64,000 nt of DNA. It comes from Epilithonimonas lactis (GTDB lineage: Bacteria; Bacteroidota; Bacteroidia; Flavobacteriales; Weeksellaceae). The notes under the pieces are model-generated. The model had not been told where the DNA came from. It worked only from the letters and a program-made list of their open reading frames with translations, and searched no databases. A program made the translations under genes and the position numbers. Below, piece by piece: positions 8,852-48,713 of the stretch (position 1 is its first letter; the number at the start of each line of letters is the position of its first letter). The stretch spans positions 806,001 to 870,000 of the forward strand of contig NZ_FOFI01000002.1 of NCBI RefSeq assembly GCF_900110605.1, given 5' to 3'.

Positions 8852-9472
8852 TTATTTCTCAAACAGCATTTTCGTGATAAAATCCTTCTCCTGATTTCCT
8901 CTCGCCTGAGAATATTCCCGTCCGTAGAAGATGATTTGAAGGTGCAATTTGTTCCAAACATTTTCCTTCCAAAGGCTTTTCGCGTCGCGTTCCGTTTCGA
9001 CCACATTTTTTCCTTCGGTCAGTTTCCATTGCTTCATCAACCGGTGAATGTGCGTATCAACGGGAAAAGCCGGGAATCCAAACGCCTGACTCATCACCAC
9101 AGAAGCCGTTTTGTGACCAACGCCAGCCAATTCTTCCAACGCTTCGAAAGTTTGAGGAACGACTGAATTGTGTTTTTCAACCAAAACTTCCGCCATCTTT
9201 TTCAGGTTCTTCGCTTTGGAATTTGAAAGTCCGATTTCCTTGATGAGTTCTTTAATTTCTTCGACACTCAGTTGTGCCATTTTCTCCGGCGTATCGGCCA
9301 CCGCAAAAAGCCGAGGCGTGACCTGATTCACTTTTTTGTCGGTCGTTTGAGCAGAAAGAGCGACCGCAACCATCAGCGTGTAAGCGTCTTTGTGGTCCAG
9401 CGGAATCGGAACTTCTGGATATAACTTTTCTAATTCTTCCTGAACAATCTTCGCCCTTTGTTTTTTCGTCAT
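8852..9472 (-). CDS. nth: Endonuclease III-type DNA glycosylase lacking the Fe-S cluster cysteines
   Basis: 206 residues. Endonuclease III removes oxidised pyrimidines and nicks the abasic site. The helix-hairpin-helix LAGVGHKTA carries the catalytic lysine (K121), and FPVDTHIHR carries the catalytic aspartate (D139), both at the E. coli positions plus one. The C-terminal region that in E. coli holds the C-X6-C-X2-C-X5-C [4Fe-4S] loop is here GREYSQARGNQEKDF, and the whole protein has no cysteine at all. Catalytic residues are intact, so it is probably an active cluster-free form. Confidence 0.92.
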   Translation of the reverse strand: MTKKQRAKIVQEELEKLYPEVPIPLDHKDAYTLMVAVALSAQTTDKKVNQVTPRLFAVADTPEKMAQLSVEEIKELIKEIGLSNSKAKNLKKMAEVLVEKHNSVVPQTFEALEELAGVGHKTASVVMSQAFGFPAFPVDTHIHRLMKQWKLTEGKNVVETERDAKSLWKENVWNKLHLQIIFYGREYSQARGNQEKDFITKMLFEK

Positions 9473-9492
9473 TTTTCTTTAGTAATTTTTAT

Positions 9493-9578
9493 GGCAGCTT
9501 TATCCGCCTTCCACTCCCAATCTTTTTGCCCAATCTTTTCCAGCCGCAAAAAGGATTTCCGTTCAAGTCGGGCTGCGG
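9493..9578 (+). repeat. Dispersed foldback repeat R1, copy A (GCAGC/GCTGC ends)
   Basis: One of four copies in the window (others at 28784, 40919 on the minus strand, and 46423). The shared core reads CCGCCTTCC, then CCCAATCTTTTTGCC, then CTTTTCCAGCC, then AAAAAGGATTTCC and CAAGTCGGG. Terminal GCAGC (9494-9498) pairs with GCTGC (9572-9576), and inner CTTTTTGC pairs with GCAAAAAG. It lies between the divergent nth and bcp genes. An open frame through it is incidental. Confidence 0.85.
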
Positions 9579-9661
9579 ATTTCGACATTTATTCAACATT
9601 TCACATCAAATCCACGATGCAAAATCTAAGAATGAATTATTTTTGTGTAAAAATAGAAATT

Positions 9662-10108
9662 ATGTTGAAGCTTGGCGATTCTTTACCAGAATTTATCGGA
9701 ACAAATCAAAATGGAGAACAAATCGATTCTCAGAATTTCAAAGGCAAAAAACTCGTGGTCTTCTTTTATCCAAAAGCCAGCACGCCAGGTTGTACTTCGG
9801 AAGCTTGCAATCTACGAGACAATTATTCGGTTTTGAAACAGAAAGGTTTTCAGTTGATTGGCGTAAGTGCAGATTCTGAAAAACGTCAGAAAAATTTCTC
9901 TGATAAATATGAATTACCATTTGACATCATTGCCGATGAAAACCACGATGTCATCAACAAATTCGGAGTTTGGCAGTTGAAGAAGTTTATGGGTAGGGAA
10001 TTTATGGGAATCGTGCGAACGACTTTTGTTTTTGATGAAAATGGAATTTGCATCCAAGTCATTGATAAAGTCAAAACGAAAGACCACGCAGCGCAGATTT
10101 TGGAATAA
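9662..10108 (+). CDS. bcp: Thioredoxin-dependent thiol peroxidase, Bcp/PrxQ type
   Basis: 148 residues starting at the ATG at 9662 (MLKLGDSLPEF). The same frame is open upstream to 9458, but that part runs through repeat R1 and is not coding. Bcp reduces hydroperoxides with electrons from thioredoxin. The peroxidatic C44 and resolving C49 are in TPGCTSEAC, the five-residue spacing of atypical 2-Cys PrxQ enzymes. Cytoplasmic. Length is normal for the family. Confidence 0.94.
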   Translation: MLKLGDSLPEFIGTNQNGEQIDSQNFKGKKLVVFFYPKASTPGCTSEACNLRDNYSVLKQKGFQLIGVSADSEKRQKNFSDKYELPFDIIADENHDVINKFGVWQLKKFMGREFMGIVRTTFVFDENGICIQVIDKVKTKDHAAQILE

Positions 10109-27740: not shown

Positions 27741-28766
27741 TTATGCTTTCCAATCTACAACAGCCTTTATAAAAGCTTCTGCATTTTCAACTGGAATATT
27801 GGGTAAAATCCCGTGTCCGAGATTCACAATGTATTTATCTTTTCCAAAACGGTCAATCATCTCGTGAACCATTTTCCGAATCGTCGCCGGCGTCGAGTGC
27901 AATCTCGATGGGTCAAAATTCCCCTGAAGCGTCACCGAATTATTCGTGAATTGTCTCGCCAATTCTGGAGTAATCGTCCAGTCAACGCCCAAAGCAGACG
28001 CTTTAGATTTCGTCATATCTTCCAACGCAAACCAACAGCCTTTCCCGAAAACCACAACGTGCGTCAACGGCGCGAGAGCTTCCACGATTTGATTGATATA
28101 TTGCCAAGAAAACTCCTGATAATCAGCCGGCGAAAGCATTCCGCCCCAACTGTCAAAAACCTGAACTGCAGAAACACCTTTCTCCACTTTTCGTTTCAAA
28201 TAAGCAATCGTCGTGTCCGTAATTTTCTGCAATAATTTGTGTGCCGCTTCCGTTTGCAGGAAGCAAAAAGACTTCGCAATATTGAAATCCTTAGAACCTC
28301 TTCCTTCAATACAATAGCAGAAAATCGTCCAAGGACTTCCGGCAAAACCAATCAACGGAATCTCATTGTCCAGCTTTTCCAACGTCATTTCTATCGCATC
28401 GAAAACATAACCCAAAGTTTCATTCACGTCCGGAACTATCACATCGTCAACTTGTTGAGCGGTTCTGATAGGTTCGTCCAACCAAGGTCCTACGGATTCC
28501 TTCATTTTGAAATCAATGCCCATCGCTTGCGGAACCACCAAGATGTCCGAGAACAAAATCGCCGCGTCCAAAGGAAATCTTCTAATCGGCTGAACCGTAA
28601 TTTCCGAGGCCAATTCCGGCGTCTGGCATCTGGTGAAAAAGTCGTATTTGTCGCGCAACGCAATGAATTCCGGCAAGTATCTTCCGGCTTGTCTCATCAT
28701 CCACACAGGCGGTCTTTCCACGGTTTCGCCTCGCAAGGCCTTCAGGTATAGGTCGTTCTTTATCAT
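27741..28766 (-). CDS. hemE: Uroporphyrinogen decarboxylase
   Basis: 341 residues. HemE removes four acetate carboxyl groups from uroporphyrinogen III to give coproporphyrinogen III in haem synthesis. The N-terminal family signature [16 protein letters not shown] is at about 20-35, and the second signature [15 protein letters not shown] is near 140. Active-site residues RQAGRY, FSDI and the late NLGHGI are present. It lies downstream of hemA-hemC-hemD on the same strand but is separated from hemD by about 600 bases filled with repeats, so it may have its own promoter. Confidence 0.96.
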
Positions 28767-28783
28767 TTTCTTAAATTATTTTT

Positions 28784-28870
28784 GGGCGCCTTTTTCCGCC
28801 TTCCGTTCCCAATCTTTTTGCCCGGGCTTTTCCAGCCACAAAAAAGGATTTCCACTCAAGTCGGGGCGCG
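28784..28870 (+). repeat. Dispersed foldback repeat R1, copy B (GGCGCC-type ends)
   Basis: Same core as the copies at 9493 and 46423, but its ends are GGGCGCC (28784-28790) and GGGGCGC (28863-28869), which still pair with one another (GCGCC with GGCGC). It lies 18 bases upstream of the hemE ATG, in opposite orientation to hemE. Confidence 0.88.
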
Positions 28871-28966
28871 CTTCGCAAAGTTTAGCGTTTAGTCTTCCAA
28901 ATCAGCTTTCCCAAAAGTTGAACTTTCCTTAGAAATCAGTTTTAAATTATTTATTTTTTTTGAACT

Positions 28967-40868: not shown

Positions 40869-40918
40869 TATTTGAATCGTTGTCGTTAATGACAAACGTT
40901 GATTTTATGTAGAAACCC

Positions 40919-41027
40919 GCGCCCCGACTTGAGCGGAAATCCTTTTTTGTAGCTGGTAAAGCTTTGGCAAAAAGATTGGGAGCCCTTCGACAAGCTCAGG
41001 ATAAACTACAGGCGGATATAGGCGCCC
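40919..41027 (-). repeat. Dispersed foldback repeat R1, copy C (GGCGCC-type ends, with an insertion)
   Basis: The R1 core on the minus strand, ends GCGCCCC (40919-40925) and GGCGCCC (41021-41027). Compared with the other copies, it is longer, because the stretch GCCCTTCGACAAGCTCAGG with flanks (40982-41010) sits where the others have a short GGAAC-type link. Ten bases past the ABC-F stop. Confidence 0.82.
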
Positions 41028-41036
41028 AAATAATTT

Positions 41037-42659
41037 TTAAGAATACATTTGCTCCTGTAATTCTTTGATTTTCTTGTCAGATAGATATTCGTCGTAAGTC
41101 ATATCTCTGTCGATGATTCCTTTCGGCGTCAACTCGATGATTCTGTTACAAACCGTTCCAAGCAACTCGTGATCGTGGGAAGACAACAGGATGTTTCCTT
41201 TGAAGTTGTTCAATGAGTTGTTCAAGGTTGTGATACTTTCCAAATCCAGGTGATTGATAGGCTCATCCAAAAGAAGAACGTTCGCTTTCTGAAGCATCAT
41301 TCTACTGAACATACATCTCATTTTTTCACCTCCAGAAAGGACTTTACAAGATTTTAGAGCCTCGTCGCCAGAGAAAAGCATTCTTCCCAAGAAACCTCTC
41401 ATAAATTCCTCGTGACGCTCCTCGTCATTCTTCGTGAATTGTCTCAGCCAGTCTACCAAGTTGATGTCATCTTGGAAGAAGTTGGTGTTGTCCAAAGGCA
41501 TATGCGATTGGTTCGTCGTAACACCCCAAGCCACATTTCCTTTGTCTGCAGGAAGATTTCCGGCAAGGATTTCGAAAAATTCTGTGATTGCCAAAGAGTT
41601 TCTGGAGATTACAGCCACTTTATCACCTTTTTTAAGATTAAGGTCGATGTTTGTGAAGAGTAATTCGCCATCTTTGGTTTTTTGAAGACCTTTCACGTCT
41701 AGAATCTGGTCTCCAACTTCTCTTTCGGTGTCGAAAATGATGGCTGGATATCTTCTGGAGGAAGGTTTGATATCGTCGATGTTCAATTTGTCAATCATCT
41801 TTTTACGAGCAGTAGCCTGTTTTGCTTTCGCTACGTTGGAACTGAATCGCGCGATGAAATCCTGTAATTCTTTTTTCTTGTCCTCAGCTTTTTTGTTGGC
41901 CTGAGCTCTTTGTCTCGTTGCCAACTGTGAAGCTTGATACCAGAAAGAGTAGTTACCAGTGTAAAGATTCAACTTCGCATAATCCAAATCGCCGATGTGC
42001 GTACAAACGGTGTCCAAGAAGTGACGGTCGTGAGAAACAACGATCACGGTGTTCTCATAATCTGCCAAGAAATCCTCTAACCAAGCGATTGTAGCGATAT
42101 CCAGGTCATTGGTAGGCTCATCCAGAATCAGTACGTCTGGATTACCGAACAATGCCTGAGCAAGCAAAACTCTTACTTTGTCTTTGTTCTCAAGTTCGCC
42201 CATCAATTGGTAATGCATATCTTCTGAAATACCAACATTTGAAAGCAAGGTCTGCGCATCAGCTTCGGAGTTCCATCCGCCCATTTCGTCGTACACTACG
42301 CCAAGTTCTCCAGCTTTGATTCCATCATCGTCTGAGAAGTCTTCTTTTGCATACAAAGCGTCCATTTCTTCTTTGATGTCGAAAAGCATTTTGTTACCTC
42401 TAAGGATGGTTTCCAATACCGTGAAGTTGTCGTAAGCAAAGTGGTCCTGCTCCAATACGGACATTCTTTTTCCGTTTTCCAAAGATACGTGGCCAGATGT
42501 TGGGTCTTGTTTTCCGCTTAATATTTTAAGGAAAGTCGATTTTCCTGCACCGTTGGCACCAATGATACCGTAGCAATTCCCTTTTGTAAATTTTATATTG
42601 ACTTCATCAAAAAGAACTCTTTTCCCGAACTGTAATGATAAATTAGATACTGTTAACAT
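41037..42659 (-). CDS. ABC-F family ATP-binding protein (YbiT-like)
   Basis: 540 residues with two ATP-binding domains and no membrane part. The first Walker A is GANGAGKST (about 35-43) with Walker B VLILDEPTNDLD. The second domain has LSGGEKMR and VLLLDEPINHLD. In the first domain the signature position reads GELENKDKVR instead of LSGGQ. ABC-F proteins bind the ribosome and rescue or protect translation. The start MLTVSNLSLQFGKRVLF and the length match E. coli YbiT. Function in this organism not known. Confidence 0.92.
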   Translation of the reverse strand: MLTVSNLSLQFGKRVLFDEVNIKFTKGNCYGIIGANGAGKSTFLKILSGKQDPTSGHVSLENGKRMSVLEQDHFAYDNFTVLETILRGNKMLFDIKEEMDALYAKEDFSDDDGIKAGELGVVYDEMGGWNSEADAQTLLSNVGISEDMHYQLMGELENKDKVRVLLAQALFGNPDVLILDEPTNDLDIATIAWLEDFLADYENTVIVVSHDRHFLDTVCTHIGDLDYAKLNLYTGNYSFWYQASQLATRQRAQANKKAEDKKKELQDFIARFSSNVAKAKQATARKKMIDKLNIDDIKPSSRRYPAIIFDTEREVGDQILDVKGLQKTKDGELLFTNIDLNLKKGDKVAVISRNSLAITEFFEILAGNLPADKGNVAWGVTTNQSHMPLDNTNFFQDDINLVDWLRQFTKNDEERHEEFMRGFLGRMLFSGDEALKSCKVLSGGEKMRCMFSRMMLQKANVLLLDEPINHLDLESITTLNNSLNNFKGNILLSSHDHELLGTVCNRIIELTPKGIIDRDMTYDEYLSDKKIKELQEQMYS

Positions 42660-46389: not shown

Positions 46390-46422
46390 TACTTATCACA
46401 ACTTTTCAATAATAATTATTAT

Positions 46423-46509
46423 GGCAGCTTTATCCGCCTTCCGTTCCCAATCTTTTTGCCATCGCTTTTCCAGCCACAAAAAAGGATTTCCACTCAAGTC
46501 GGGCTGCGG
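46423..46509 (+). repeat. Dispersed foldback repeat R1, copy D (GCAGC/GCTGC ends)
   Basis: Same type as copy A: ATGGCAGCTTTATCCGCC at the left, GCTGC at 46503-46507 on the right, and nearly the same core as copy B. It lies in the 331-base divergent gap between rplU and the GH3 gene (46329-46659), which also holds the perfect hairpin at 46547 and no gene. Confidence 0.88.
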
Positions 46510-46546
46510 ATTCAACATACAAACAGGTTTAGTACTGAATAAGAAG

Positions 46547-46597
46547 TTTGTCATTCCGTAGGAATCTAGACTGCTGAGATTCCTACGGAATGACAAA
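46547..46597. repeat. Perfect 21-bp hairpin, CATTCCGTAGGAATCT family
   Basis: Bases 46547-46567 (TTTGTCATTCCGTAGGAATC plus T) are the exact reverse complement of 46577-46597, with a 9-base loop. No T-run follows on either side, so it does not look like a terminator. A half copy is found at 30094-30113. Confidence 0.8.
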
Positions 46598-46634
46598 GAT
46601 TGTATATATATAATTATACATAAAGAATTGTTCA

Positions 46635-46659: not shown

Positions 46660-48165
46660 ATGATGTTGGATTTTATCAAGAAAAATATCGCGCTCATCTG
46701 GGCCAAAAAACATATCGCCAAAACAAAAGATTTCAAAACCAATGCGGTAAAGAATCAGGAAGAGCTCTTGCTTTCACTTGTCAAAACGGCGGAAAAAACC
46801 TTGTTCGGAAGAGAACATCAATTCGAAGGGATAAAGACTATTGATGATTTCCGAAATAACGTTCCGATTGCAGATTACGAAGATTTGAAACCTTACATCG
46901 AGAAAGTCAAAAAAGGACAATCCAAAATCCTTTGGCCAGATTTGCCAGAATATTTCGCGAAAACCTCAGGAACAACTTCCGGTGCCAAATACATTCCGAT
47001 TTCCAAAGAAGCAATGCCTTACCAAATTGGTGGGGCGCAAAGTGCACTTTTCCATTATATTGCCAAGAAAAACAACGCAGATTTCGTTGGTGGAAAAATG
47101 ATTTTCCTGCAAGGTTCACCAGAATTGCAAGAAATCAATGGCATCAAAAACGGACGATTGTCTGGAATCGTGGCGCATCACATTCCAAATTACCTTCAGA
47201 AAAACAGATTGCCAAGCTGGGAAACCAACTGCATCGAAGATTGGGAAACCAAAATCGATAAAATCGTAGAGGAAACCGAGAAAGAAAATATGACCTTGAT
47301 TTCCGGGATTCCGCCTTGGTTGATAATGTACTTTGAAAAACTGATTGACCGTCACGGAAAGAAAATCACAGAGATTTTTCCTAACCTTCAATTAATCATA
47401 ACTGGTGGCGTGAATTACGAACCTTACCGAGATAAGATGAACGAATTGCTGGGAAAACCTGTCGATATCGTTCAGACTTTTCCAGCGTCGGAGGGATTTT
47501 TTGCGTTTCAGGATGATTATACGAAAGAAGGCTTGTTGCTATTGACGAATCACGGGATTTTTTATGAGTTTGTTCCTTTAGAAGAATTCGGGAAAGCAAA
47601 TGCCAAAAGATTGACGCTGAAAGATGTGGAACTCAATAAAGATTACGCCTTGATTTTGACAACCAATTCCGGGCTTTGGGCATATTCCATTGGCGATGTG
47701 GTGAGATTCATTGATAAAAATCCGCACAGAATTTTGGTTTCTGGTAGGACGAAACATTTCACTTCCGCTTTTGGTGAACACGTGATTGCATTTGAAGTCG
47801 AGGAGGCATTGAAAGTAACGGTTGAGAAATTTCCGGCACAAATCACCGAATTCCATCTTGCACCACAAGTAAATCCTGCGCAAGGTTTGCCTTACCACGA
47901 ATGGTTTATCGAGTTTGAAAAAGAGCCGGAAAGTTTTGAAGCGTTCAAATCTGAATTGGATTTGCAACTCAGAAAACGAAATACGTATTATGATGATTTG
48001 ATTTCCGGAAGTATTCTGCAACCTTTGGTCATCACAAAATTGAAGAAAAATGCCTTCCAGGATTATGCCAAATCTGAAGGGAAATTGGGCGGACAAAACA
48101 AGATTCCAAGGCTTGCAAATGATAGAAAAATTGCTTTATATTTGGAAAAACTAAATTTACAATGA
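46660..48165 (+). CDS. GH3 family (auxin-responsive promoter type) acyl-adenylate-forming protein
   Basis: 501 residues. Plant GH3 enzymes adenylate carboxylic acids such as indole acetate and transfer them to amino acids; bacterial members are uncharacterised. Family motifs are seen: KTSGTTSGAKYIPIS (ATP-binding loop), FPASEGFFAFQ, YSIGDVVRF and GRTKHFTSAFGEHV. Two ATGs are adjacent (46660 and 46663), so the start may be either. The next gene, a small lipoprotein, overlaps by ATGA. Confidence 0.92.
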   Translation: MMLDFIKKNIALIWAKKHIAKTKDFKTNAVKNQEELLLSLVKTAEKTLFGREHQFEGIKTIDDFRNNVPIADYEDLKPYIEKVKKGQSKILWPDLPEYFAKTSGTTSGAKYIPISKEAMPYQIGGAQSALFHYIAKKNNADFVGGKMIFLQGSPELQEINGIKNGRLSGIVAHHIPNYLQKNRLPSWETNCIEDWETKIDKIVEETEKENMTLISGIPPWLIMYFEKLIDRHGKKITEIFPNLQLIITGGVNYEPYRDKMNELLGKPVDIVQTFPASEGFFAFQDDYTKEGLLLLTNHGIFYEFVPLEEFGKANAKRLTLKDVELNKDYALILTTNSGLWAYSIGDVVRFIDKNPHRILVSGRTKHFTSAFGEHVIAFEVEEALKVTVEKFPAQITEFHLAPQVNPAQGLPYHEWFIEFEKEPESFEAFKSELDLQLRKRNTYYDDLISGSILQPLVITKLKKNAFQDYAKSEGKLGGQNKIPRLANDRKIALYLEKLNLQ

Positions 48166-48527: not shown

Positions 48528-48596
48528 GAATCTGAATATTAGAATTTGGAAATGTCAGTAGATGTTACCGAATCTTCAATAGACCGACCAATACCA

Positions 48597-48713
48597 TAGC
48601 CCCGATAGGAACGGCATCCTTTTTTGTCATTGCGATTGTTGAAACGTTCAATGCTGTATTAATGTCGTTCGCAATGGCAAAAAAGATATAGTGGATAGCG
48701 GGATCAAGCTCCT
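48597..48713. repeat. Foldback repeat with CCTTTTTT/AAAAAAG arms
   Basis: The left part (TAGCCCCGATAGGAACGGCATCC then TTTTTTGTCATTGCGA) is the imperfect reverse complement of the right part (TCGCAATGGCAAAAAA, then GGATAGCGGGATCAAGCTCC). It lies between the small lipoprotein gene and the MFS gene and is non-coding. Confidence 0.65.

Follow-up and report, generated by a model that had tools for sequence, protein, structure and literature searches.

The R1 repeat of Epilithonimonas lactis appears to be a divergent branch of the Flavo-1 family (Rfam RF01705), mostly uncalled at the curated cut-off, an assignment that is well supported by sequence comparison. The best view of the Flavo-1 family is as non-coding, hairpin-forming DNA repeats that occur in high copy number in Flavobacteriales, and we consider it probable that R1/Flavo-1 works as a DNA hairpin whose copies exchange tips rather than as an element that functions as RNA; the mechanism that we infer for it is set out below. 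We think that the behaviour of R1, namely persistence at sites, conserved outer arms, replacement of the tip as a block and orientation in chromosomal arcs, is new, and our literature search on the repeat found nothing beyond papers that mention Flavo-1. The analysed window of 64,000 nucleotides corresponds to C6:806001-870000 of the genome designated G000, and window coordinates equal contig coordinates minus 806000.

The first-pass annotation of the window knew of no named family for the repeat. This view is superseded by the homology of R1 to Flavo-1 over the full length of the model, on the strand opposite to the one that had been read. At the Rfam gathering threshold, Flavo-1 is called in the window only at 48594-48709, a fifth related hairpin that was missing from the earlier list. 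At a relaxed threshold, three R1 copies match the model in full length on the minus strand (from 9497, 28788 and 46427; scores in Table 1), and the copy at 40919, which carries an insert, had no Flavo-1 match up to an E value of 0.5. Among 20 R1 stretches compared with the model, including three copies from the window, 18 matched its positions 1-76 at the R1 site and on one strand, with 29.7-48.5 bits; the two stretches without a match (L002 and L016) both have inserts. Four stretches reached at least 42 bits and 16 fell below, counting the two without a match. It is these full-length matches, mostly below the gathering score of 42, that lead us to regard R1 as a mostly uncalled branch of the family.

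R1 and Flavo-1 have in common the CCG-A-.. order, the purine loops, the GGAAAUCCUUUU/AAAAGAUU stem and an unpaired A facing G in P2, and R1 has the same stems as the Rfam consensus and occurs in overlapping taxa. In contrast to the Flavo-1 model, in which this region is unpaired, R1 possesses an outer stem P1 and a 5-nt bulge; it also differs by variant pairs in P2-P4 and by its mostly sub-threshold scores. A minority class in the same genome, GGAGCT...CAATCGGGGCT, resembles classic Flavo-1 as judged by eye, and the Flavo-1 model has matches in 57 of the 98 genomes surveyed.

Table 1. R1 copies, hairpin parts of the focal copy and a related hairpin in the window (strand of each copy is that of the Flavo-1-like strand, opposite to the strand in which R1 had been read earlier)
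Feature	Position	Strand	Remarks
R1 copy	9490..9579	-	Model match; Flavo-1 35.2 bits; upstream of HhH-GPD gene 8852-9472(-) (Pfam)
R1 copy	28782..28872	-	Model match; Flavo-1 40.4 bits; upstream of URO-D gene 27741-28766(-) (Pfam)
R1 copy with extra insert	40916..41029	+	Model match; just past stop of ABC-ATPase gene 41037-42659(-) (Pfam)
R1 copy (focal)	46420..46510	-	Model match 111.2 bits; Flavo-1 34.0 bits, full length
P1 5' arm GCAGC	46424..46428		Pairs with 46503-46507; covariation at 2/5 P1 pairs, pairing in 100% of cells
P2 5' arm CCG-C-CTT	46434..46440		C 46437 opposite T 46499 (A.G on other strand)
Inner block P3-P4-tip	46443..46493		P3 = GT 46443-46444 / AC 46492-46493
P2 3' arm AAG-T-CGG	46496..46502		Covariation alignment
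P1 3' arm GCTGC	46503..46507		Sequence and covariation
Clear Flavo-1 hairpin, same superfamily	48594..48709	+	65.3 bits vs gathering score 42

All four copies that had been proposed (9493-9578, 28784-28870, 40919-41027 on the minus strand, and 46423-46509) were recovered as covariance-model matches. The copy at 40916..41029 is opposite in orientation to the other three, and its extra insert is missing from its orthologue in G014, a complete genome of the same genus. The 3' core, with up to three mismatches, has four matches in the window, where shuffles predict 0.00; the 5' core CCCAATCTTTTTGCC has four exact matches, and seven with up to three mismatches against 4.26 expected. The copies had been described as strictly intergenic, which holds for all four with respect to the larger ORFs. 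An incidental frame (9458-10108) runs through the copy at 9493; that such incidental frames cross R1 had been pointed out correctly. We parsed 97 R1 copies from the window and 75 stretches around 3'-core matches. Judged by simple longest-ORF calls, 80 of them are free of ORFs, eight are partly overlapped and nine, including the copy at 9493, lie inside an ORF. Their gene contexts were tandem in the same direction for 40 copies, tandem in the opposite direction for 16, divergent for 21 and convergent for ten. As a separate observation, made with no control comparison, several R1 copies in the loci L032-L106 start a few bases from the stop of a co-oriented gene, often at equal spacing.

The genome as a whole (4,089,033 bases in 14 contigs) contains 144 matches to a covariance model that was built on 47 of 54 short-tip copies, the other seven, mostly atypical, being excluded by hand. 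A search for the 3' core with up to three mismatches gave 96 matches (58 + 38; none for the reversed control), and one for the 5' arm gave 142 (four for the reversed control). The core is thus not confined to the four places first listed. Model matches number 128 in G014, 106 in G022 and 66 in G003. In the survey, where high per-genome counts are lower bounds because at most 44 candidates were scored per genome, 43 of 98 genomes carry R1. The search across Weeksellaceae that the first-pass annotation had proposed thereby located the repeat in all 23 genomes of the genus and in 18 of 36 other members of the family; outside the family, two of 39 genomes had matches, with weak scores. The exact core occurs in at least 112 stretches of named genomes, and the 80 matches listed all belong to Flavobacteriales by title, the genera named among them being Epilithonimonas, Chryseobacterium, Kaistella, Halpernia and Frigoriflavimonas. 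One 83-nt R1 query had no match in the plasmid or phage collections.

Many R1 sites are common to several species. Presence at orthologous sites was scored by eye, and R1 was found in 11 of 23 genomes downstream of the gene 41037-42659. It lies upstream of the gene at 46660 in 18 of 23, including one partial sighting, and upstream of the URO-D gene in nine of 12. Ahead of the HhH-GPD gene it is present in four of the nine genomes where this gene was found, with three more stretches lacking the gene. Between G000 and G014, R1 is present at 33 of 38 comparable sites and absent at five (one with a possible remnant); 31 of these sites had both arms identified by script and the other seven were read by eye, and the 38 sites come partly from stretches placed on G014 matches. 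In stretches that were contiguous or sampled every 200 kb, R1 is present at 14 of 18 sites. The outer arms of G000/G014 pairs differ by about 0.3%, compared with a mean of 6.0% in the flanks (30 of 31 pairs parsed). Of 13 differing letters in 1,110, six represent the base beside the stem and four a parsing shift, which leaves three; two further pairs have single changes in P3. At one site (L033), the relative has a clean empty site, and the additional DNA exceeds the R1 core in length; no clear target-site duplication was seen at this single site, at which the limits of the element are uncertain.

These distributions bear on the possibility that R1 is an ordinary non-autonomous transposon of the REP or MITE type that is mobilised by a transposase and conserved through recent spread. 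Such an origin would fit the more than 100 dispersed copies, the presence/absence differences between species and the clean empty site, but we consider it improbable given the sites common to species (14/18; 18/23), which indicate that the spread was not recent, and given the following search for mobility genes. The linked transposase, such as a RAYT, that had been suggested was not found: none of 30 Y1 loci has R1 within roughly 1.5 kb on each side, and the single PF01797 gene found in G000 is flanked by a different palindrome, GTCGCRGAGCGAC, as judged by eye. A PF01797 match is absent in three of the 43 R1-bearing genomes (G004, G016 and G035). Among 100 listed left arms of the 142, 99 have a paired model match and the exception, C8:550483, is followed by other repeat pieces and no gene, so that no gene-bearing R1 was seen in this set; likewise, no transposase-bearing copy was seen in the search for Y1/PF01797. 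The Y1/IS200-like gene itself (155 aa; L031, about 1300-2100) lies between copies of its own palindrome, GTCGCRGAGCGAC...TATTGGT, which likely constitutes a separate REP family.

The description of R1 as a REP/MITE-like, structure-forming element therefore stands in part: the repeat is interspersed, structured and mostly intergenic, but it has no RAYT link and the MITE reading was not established. REP sequences are likewise high-copy, intergenic, imperfect palindromes (PMC2817692, PMC3733652) and carry a GTAG- or CGTC-type tag (PMC3733652). R1 differs from them in its length (~90-110 nt versus 20-40), in the absence of a nearby RAYT and in that the Y1 gene of the genome has its own palindrome. 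Elements of the ERIC/RUP/BOX type are intergenic palindromes of ~100 nt, BOX having modular parts. R1 resembles them by description in this respect, and we know of no tip exchange at fixed sites in these elements. The RU elements (PMC2759123) are intergenic elements of the same kind.

R1 folds as one long imperfect hairpin of ~90-110 nt, in which the base is conserved and the tip can be exchanged. On the Flavo-1-like strand, the outer stem P1 (GCAGC/GCTGC) is followed by a 5-nt bulge on the 3' side, then by P2 (CCG-A-CTT/AAG-G-CGG), whose A.G mismatch is fixed. Two purine loops, the first of them 2x2, flank the two base pairs of P3; beyond them come P4 (AATC-C-TTTTTT/AAAAAA-GATT), which has a spare C, and a variable tip. 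The terminal inverted repeats noted at first sight do exist, but as the P1 base of this single hairpin. The P2 mismatch (C 46437/T 46499 in the focal copy) swaps between C.T and T.C among copies. In the 47-copy alignment, from which the structure was also drawn by hand, 99.3% of 1,076 cells are standard pairs, and slid structures pair 40-54% of cells. Double changes affect eight of 23 pairs (96 cells), and neither one-sided standard changes nor G-U pairs occurred among the 1,076 counted cells. None of 500 shuffles reached the observed values for paired cells, double-changed cells or covariation score. The number of covarying pairs was not above shuffles (68/500 reached it), and every shuffle (500/500) had at least as many further pair types as the alignment.

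We also tallied 242 distinct copies, which were picked by a pattern that fixes the remaining positions, partly from searches fixed on one P4 type, and whose counts are not independent events because the copies are related and some are orthologous. On the top strand, the mismatch is C.T in 171, T.C in 66 and other in five. P3 is GT/AC in 98, GC/GC in 76, AC/GT in 61, AT/AT in two and other in five, and P4 is AATC/GGATT in 165, GCTT/AGAGC in 30, GCTA/TGAGC in 27, AAAC/GGATT in 11 and other in nine. The three layers (P2 mismatch, P3 and P4) appear in many combinations, with the P3 and P4 states coupled. Wobbles at pairs 6, 10 and 11 (one on the top strand and three on the other in the 242 copies) were too few to indicate the strand. 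The free energies of single copies were no better than those of shuffles (z from 0.24 to -1.14 in four folds), and an intrinsic terminator was ruled out, as no T-run stands beside the outer stem.

For the 30 G000/G014 pairs, the inner parts were identical in eight and had small changes in 18; the remaining four kept their outer arms but had the tip, alone or together with P4 and P3, replaced as one block. Such swaps affect the window copies at 9493 and 28784 and other sites; the tip of the focal copy at 46423 differs between species, and some sites also show block changes in their 3' tails. At the URO-D site, nine genomes keep a GGCGCC-type P1 and the CCGCCTT arm (with one 3'-arm change in G020) but vary in the tip, with five types, and in P3, with three states. 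At the HhH-GPD site, GT/AC and a GCTTT tip are common to G014, G020 and G021, and G000 combines AC/GT with an AATC tip; the agreement of the former three places the change most simply on the G000 branch. No exact donor for a swapped tip was found in the part of G014 compared, where the nearest was one letter off for one tip and two to 15 letters off for the remaining ones.

Since both arms of the inner stem lie inside one central block, exchange of the whole block keeps them paired and explains the rarity of unpaired intermediates. Template switching, by which replication slips in the hairpin alone would keep the arms complementary with no selection on structure, accounts for this rarity as well. 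However, it would erase fixed mismatches and cannot convert C.T into T.C, and the swapped tips differ in sequence and length; we regard it as very improbable. Inversion of the core as a source of arm changes was rejected by reasoning, as it would yield the wrong letters. The restriction of the mismatch to C.T or T.C goes beyond block exchange, and we attribute it to selection.

The strand of R1 copies splits the chromosome into two arcs. Agreement with the arcs was 93/128 in G014, 71/95 in G022 (best 95 of 106 copies) and 42/55 in G003 (best 55 of 66), values that were reached by 0, 0 and 18 of 2,000 shuffles, respectively; the best arc in shuffled strands agrees on average at 64-65%. Each arc was fitted on the copies that then served to test it. 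Measured from dnaA, the edges of the arcs fall at about -1.2 and +0.95 Mb in G014 and G022 and at -0.93 and +0.18 Mb in G003, and thus the R1 strand does not flip at dnaA. GC skew is flat, the fourfold-site skew in G014 shows no arcs, and local skew around copies has no bias (44/97). Among 45 copies in G014 stretches, which were part of the data used for fitting the arc, it is followed by 14 of 15 between divergent genes and two of three between convergent genes; of the 25 tandem copies, 18 follow the arc and 19 follow the genes, and the 11 conflicts split 5 to 6. In G000, the top strand of tandem copies is co-oriented with the genes by 40 to 16.

We consider it rather unlikely that Flavo-1/R1 instead acts as RNA, that is, as a structure carried by leaders, 3' ends or transcripts of its own, with a part in stability, processing or regulation. 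Flavo-1 is typed as sRNA in Rfam, support for which was not found in this analysis, and its 2010 listing for Bacteroidetes describes it as a likely RNA that is not cis-regulatory (PMC2864571). In a review it ranks with the bacterial sRNA families of greatest abundance, and no function is entered for it (PMC9029176). An RNA role would also suit the purine-rich loops and the swapping of A.G and G.A on the Flavo-1 strand, the strong conservation at single loci and one site between a stop codon and a terminator. In a transcriptome paper on F. psychrophilum, several 5' transcribed regions coincide with Flavo-1 matches, but the matches are indistinctly sense or antisense and many lie outside transcribed regions (PMC9723704). 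Further arguments against RNA are the occurrence of the 97 copies in all gene contexts, the absence of G-U pairs among counted cells, and the orientation of copies between divergent genes, which follows the chromosome arc.

The DNA-level reading is favoured by covariation without one-sided changes, the A.G/G.A swap and the coupled P3/P4 states; by the one-strand homology to Flavo-1 at 18 of 20 R1 stretches; by outer-arm conservation, block swaps of the tip, the orientation arcs and the divergent-gene copies that follow them; and by the same sense/antisense indifference, reported independently for F. psychrophilum (PMC9723704). It is weakened by the purine-rich loops and one-strand A.G/G.A exchange, which suit RNA too, and by copies between stop codon and terminator, which would be transcribed. 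The fit of each arc to the very copies that test it, the 64-65% agreement that the best arc has even in shuffled strands, arc edges relative to dnaA that agree in G014 and G022 and not in G003, the flat skew, a tandem-context orientation that follows genes as well as the arc, the lack of an exact tip donor, single copies that fold no better than shuffles and a covarying-pair count within shuffles weaken it as well. We also know of no protein that cuts or binds R1, which counts against a DNA element.

In the mechanism that we envisage for the DNA-level repeat, one R1 strand would adopt the hairpin form while it is single-stranded, for which replication is the simplest occasion, and its conserved base with the mismatches would be recognised by a putative host factor. 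The nuclease SbcCD cuts hairpins, and in a similar way the tip may be cut now and then and repaired from another copy, which would exchange both arms of the inner stem at once and preserve pairing. New sites would arise rarely, by a route independent of any Y1/RAYT gene in the genome concerned. A more specific version, in which Flavo-1 is a DNA hairpin system with fixed sites under purifying selection, a two-arc direction and tip-centred gene conversion between copies, is put forward only tentatively. If the family is a DNA element, many flavobacterial sRNA annotations carry the wrong label. Covariation usually signals RNA structure; in that case it would instead stem here from pairing at the DNA level and from the exchange of blocks.

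Other repeats adjoin R1. A second near-perfect palindrome, TTTGTCATTCCGTAGGAATCT..., occupies 46539-46606 on the 3' side of the focal copy and follows many other copies; weak Rfam matches to miRNA families at this palindrome were dismissed as chance. A repeat of ~28 bp, ACCTAACGAAGTGGTTCGACGAAGTCAA, is inserted at AA^TCT within R1 and the adjoining palindrome (L033, L065, L069, L079 and others), as if it were a tiny element with a fixed target. In L039, and in L070 near 12478, copies with the 5' end TTTTTATGGCAGC are preceded by a piece in which ATTTGGGCAGCT is repeated, which looks like an insertion into R1 accompanied by a duplication.
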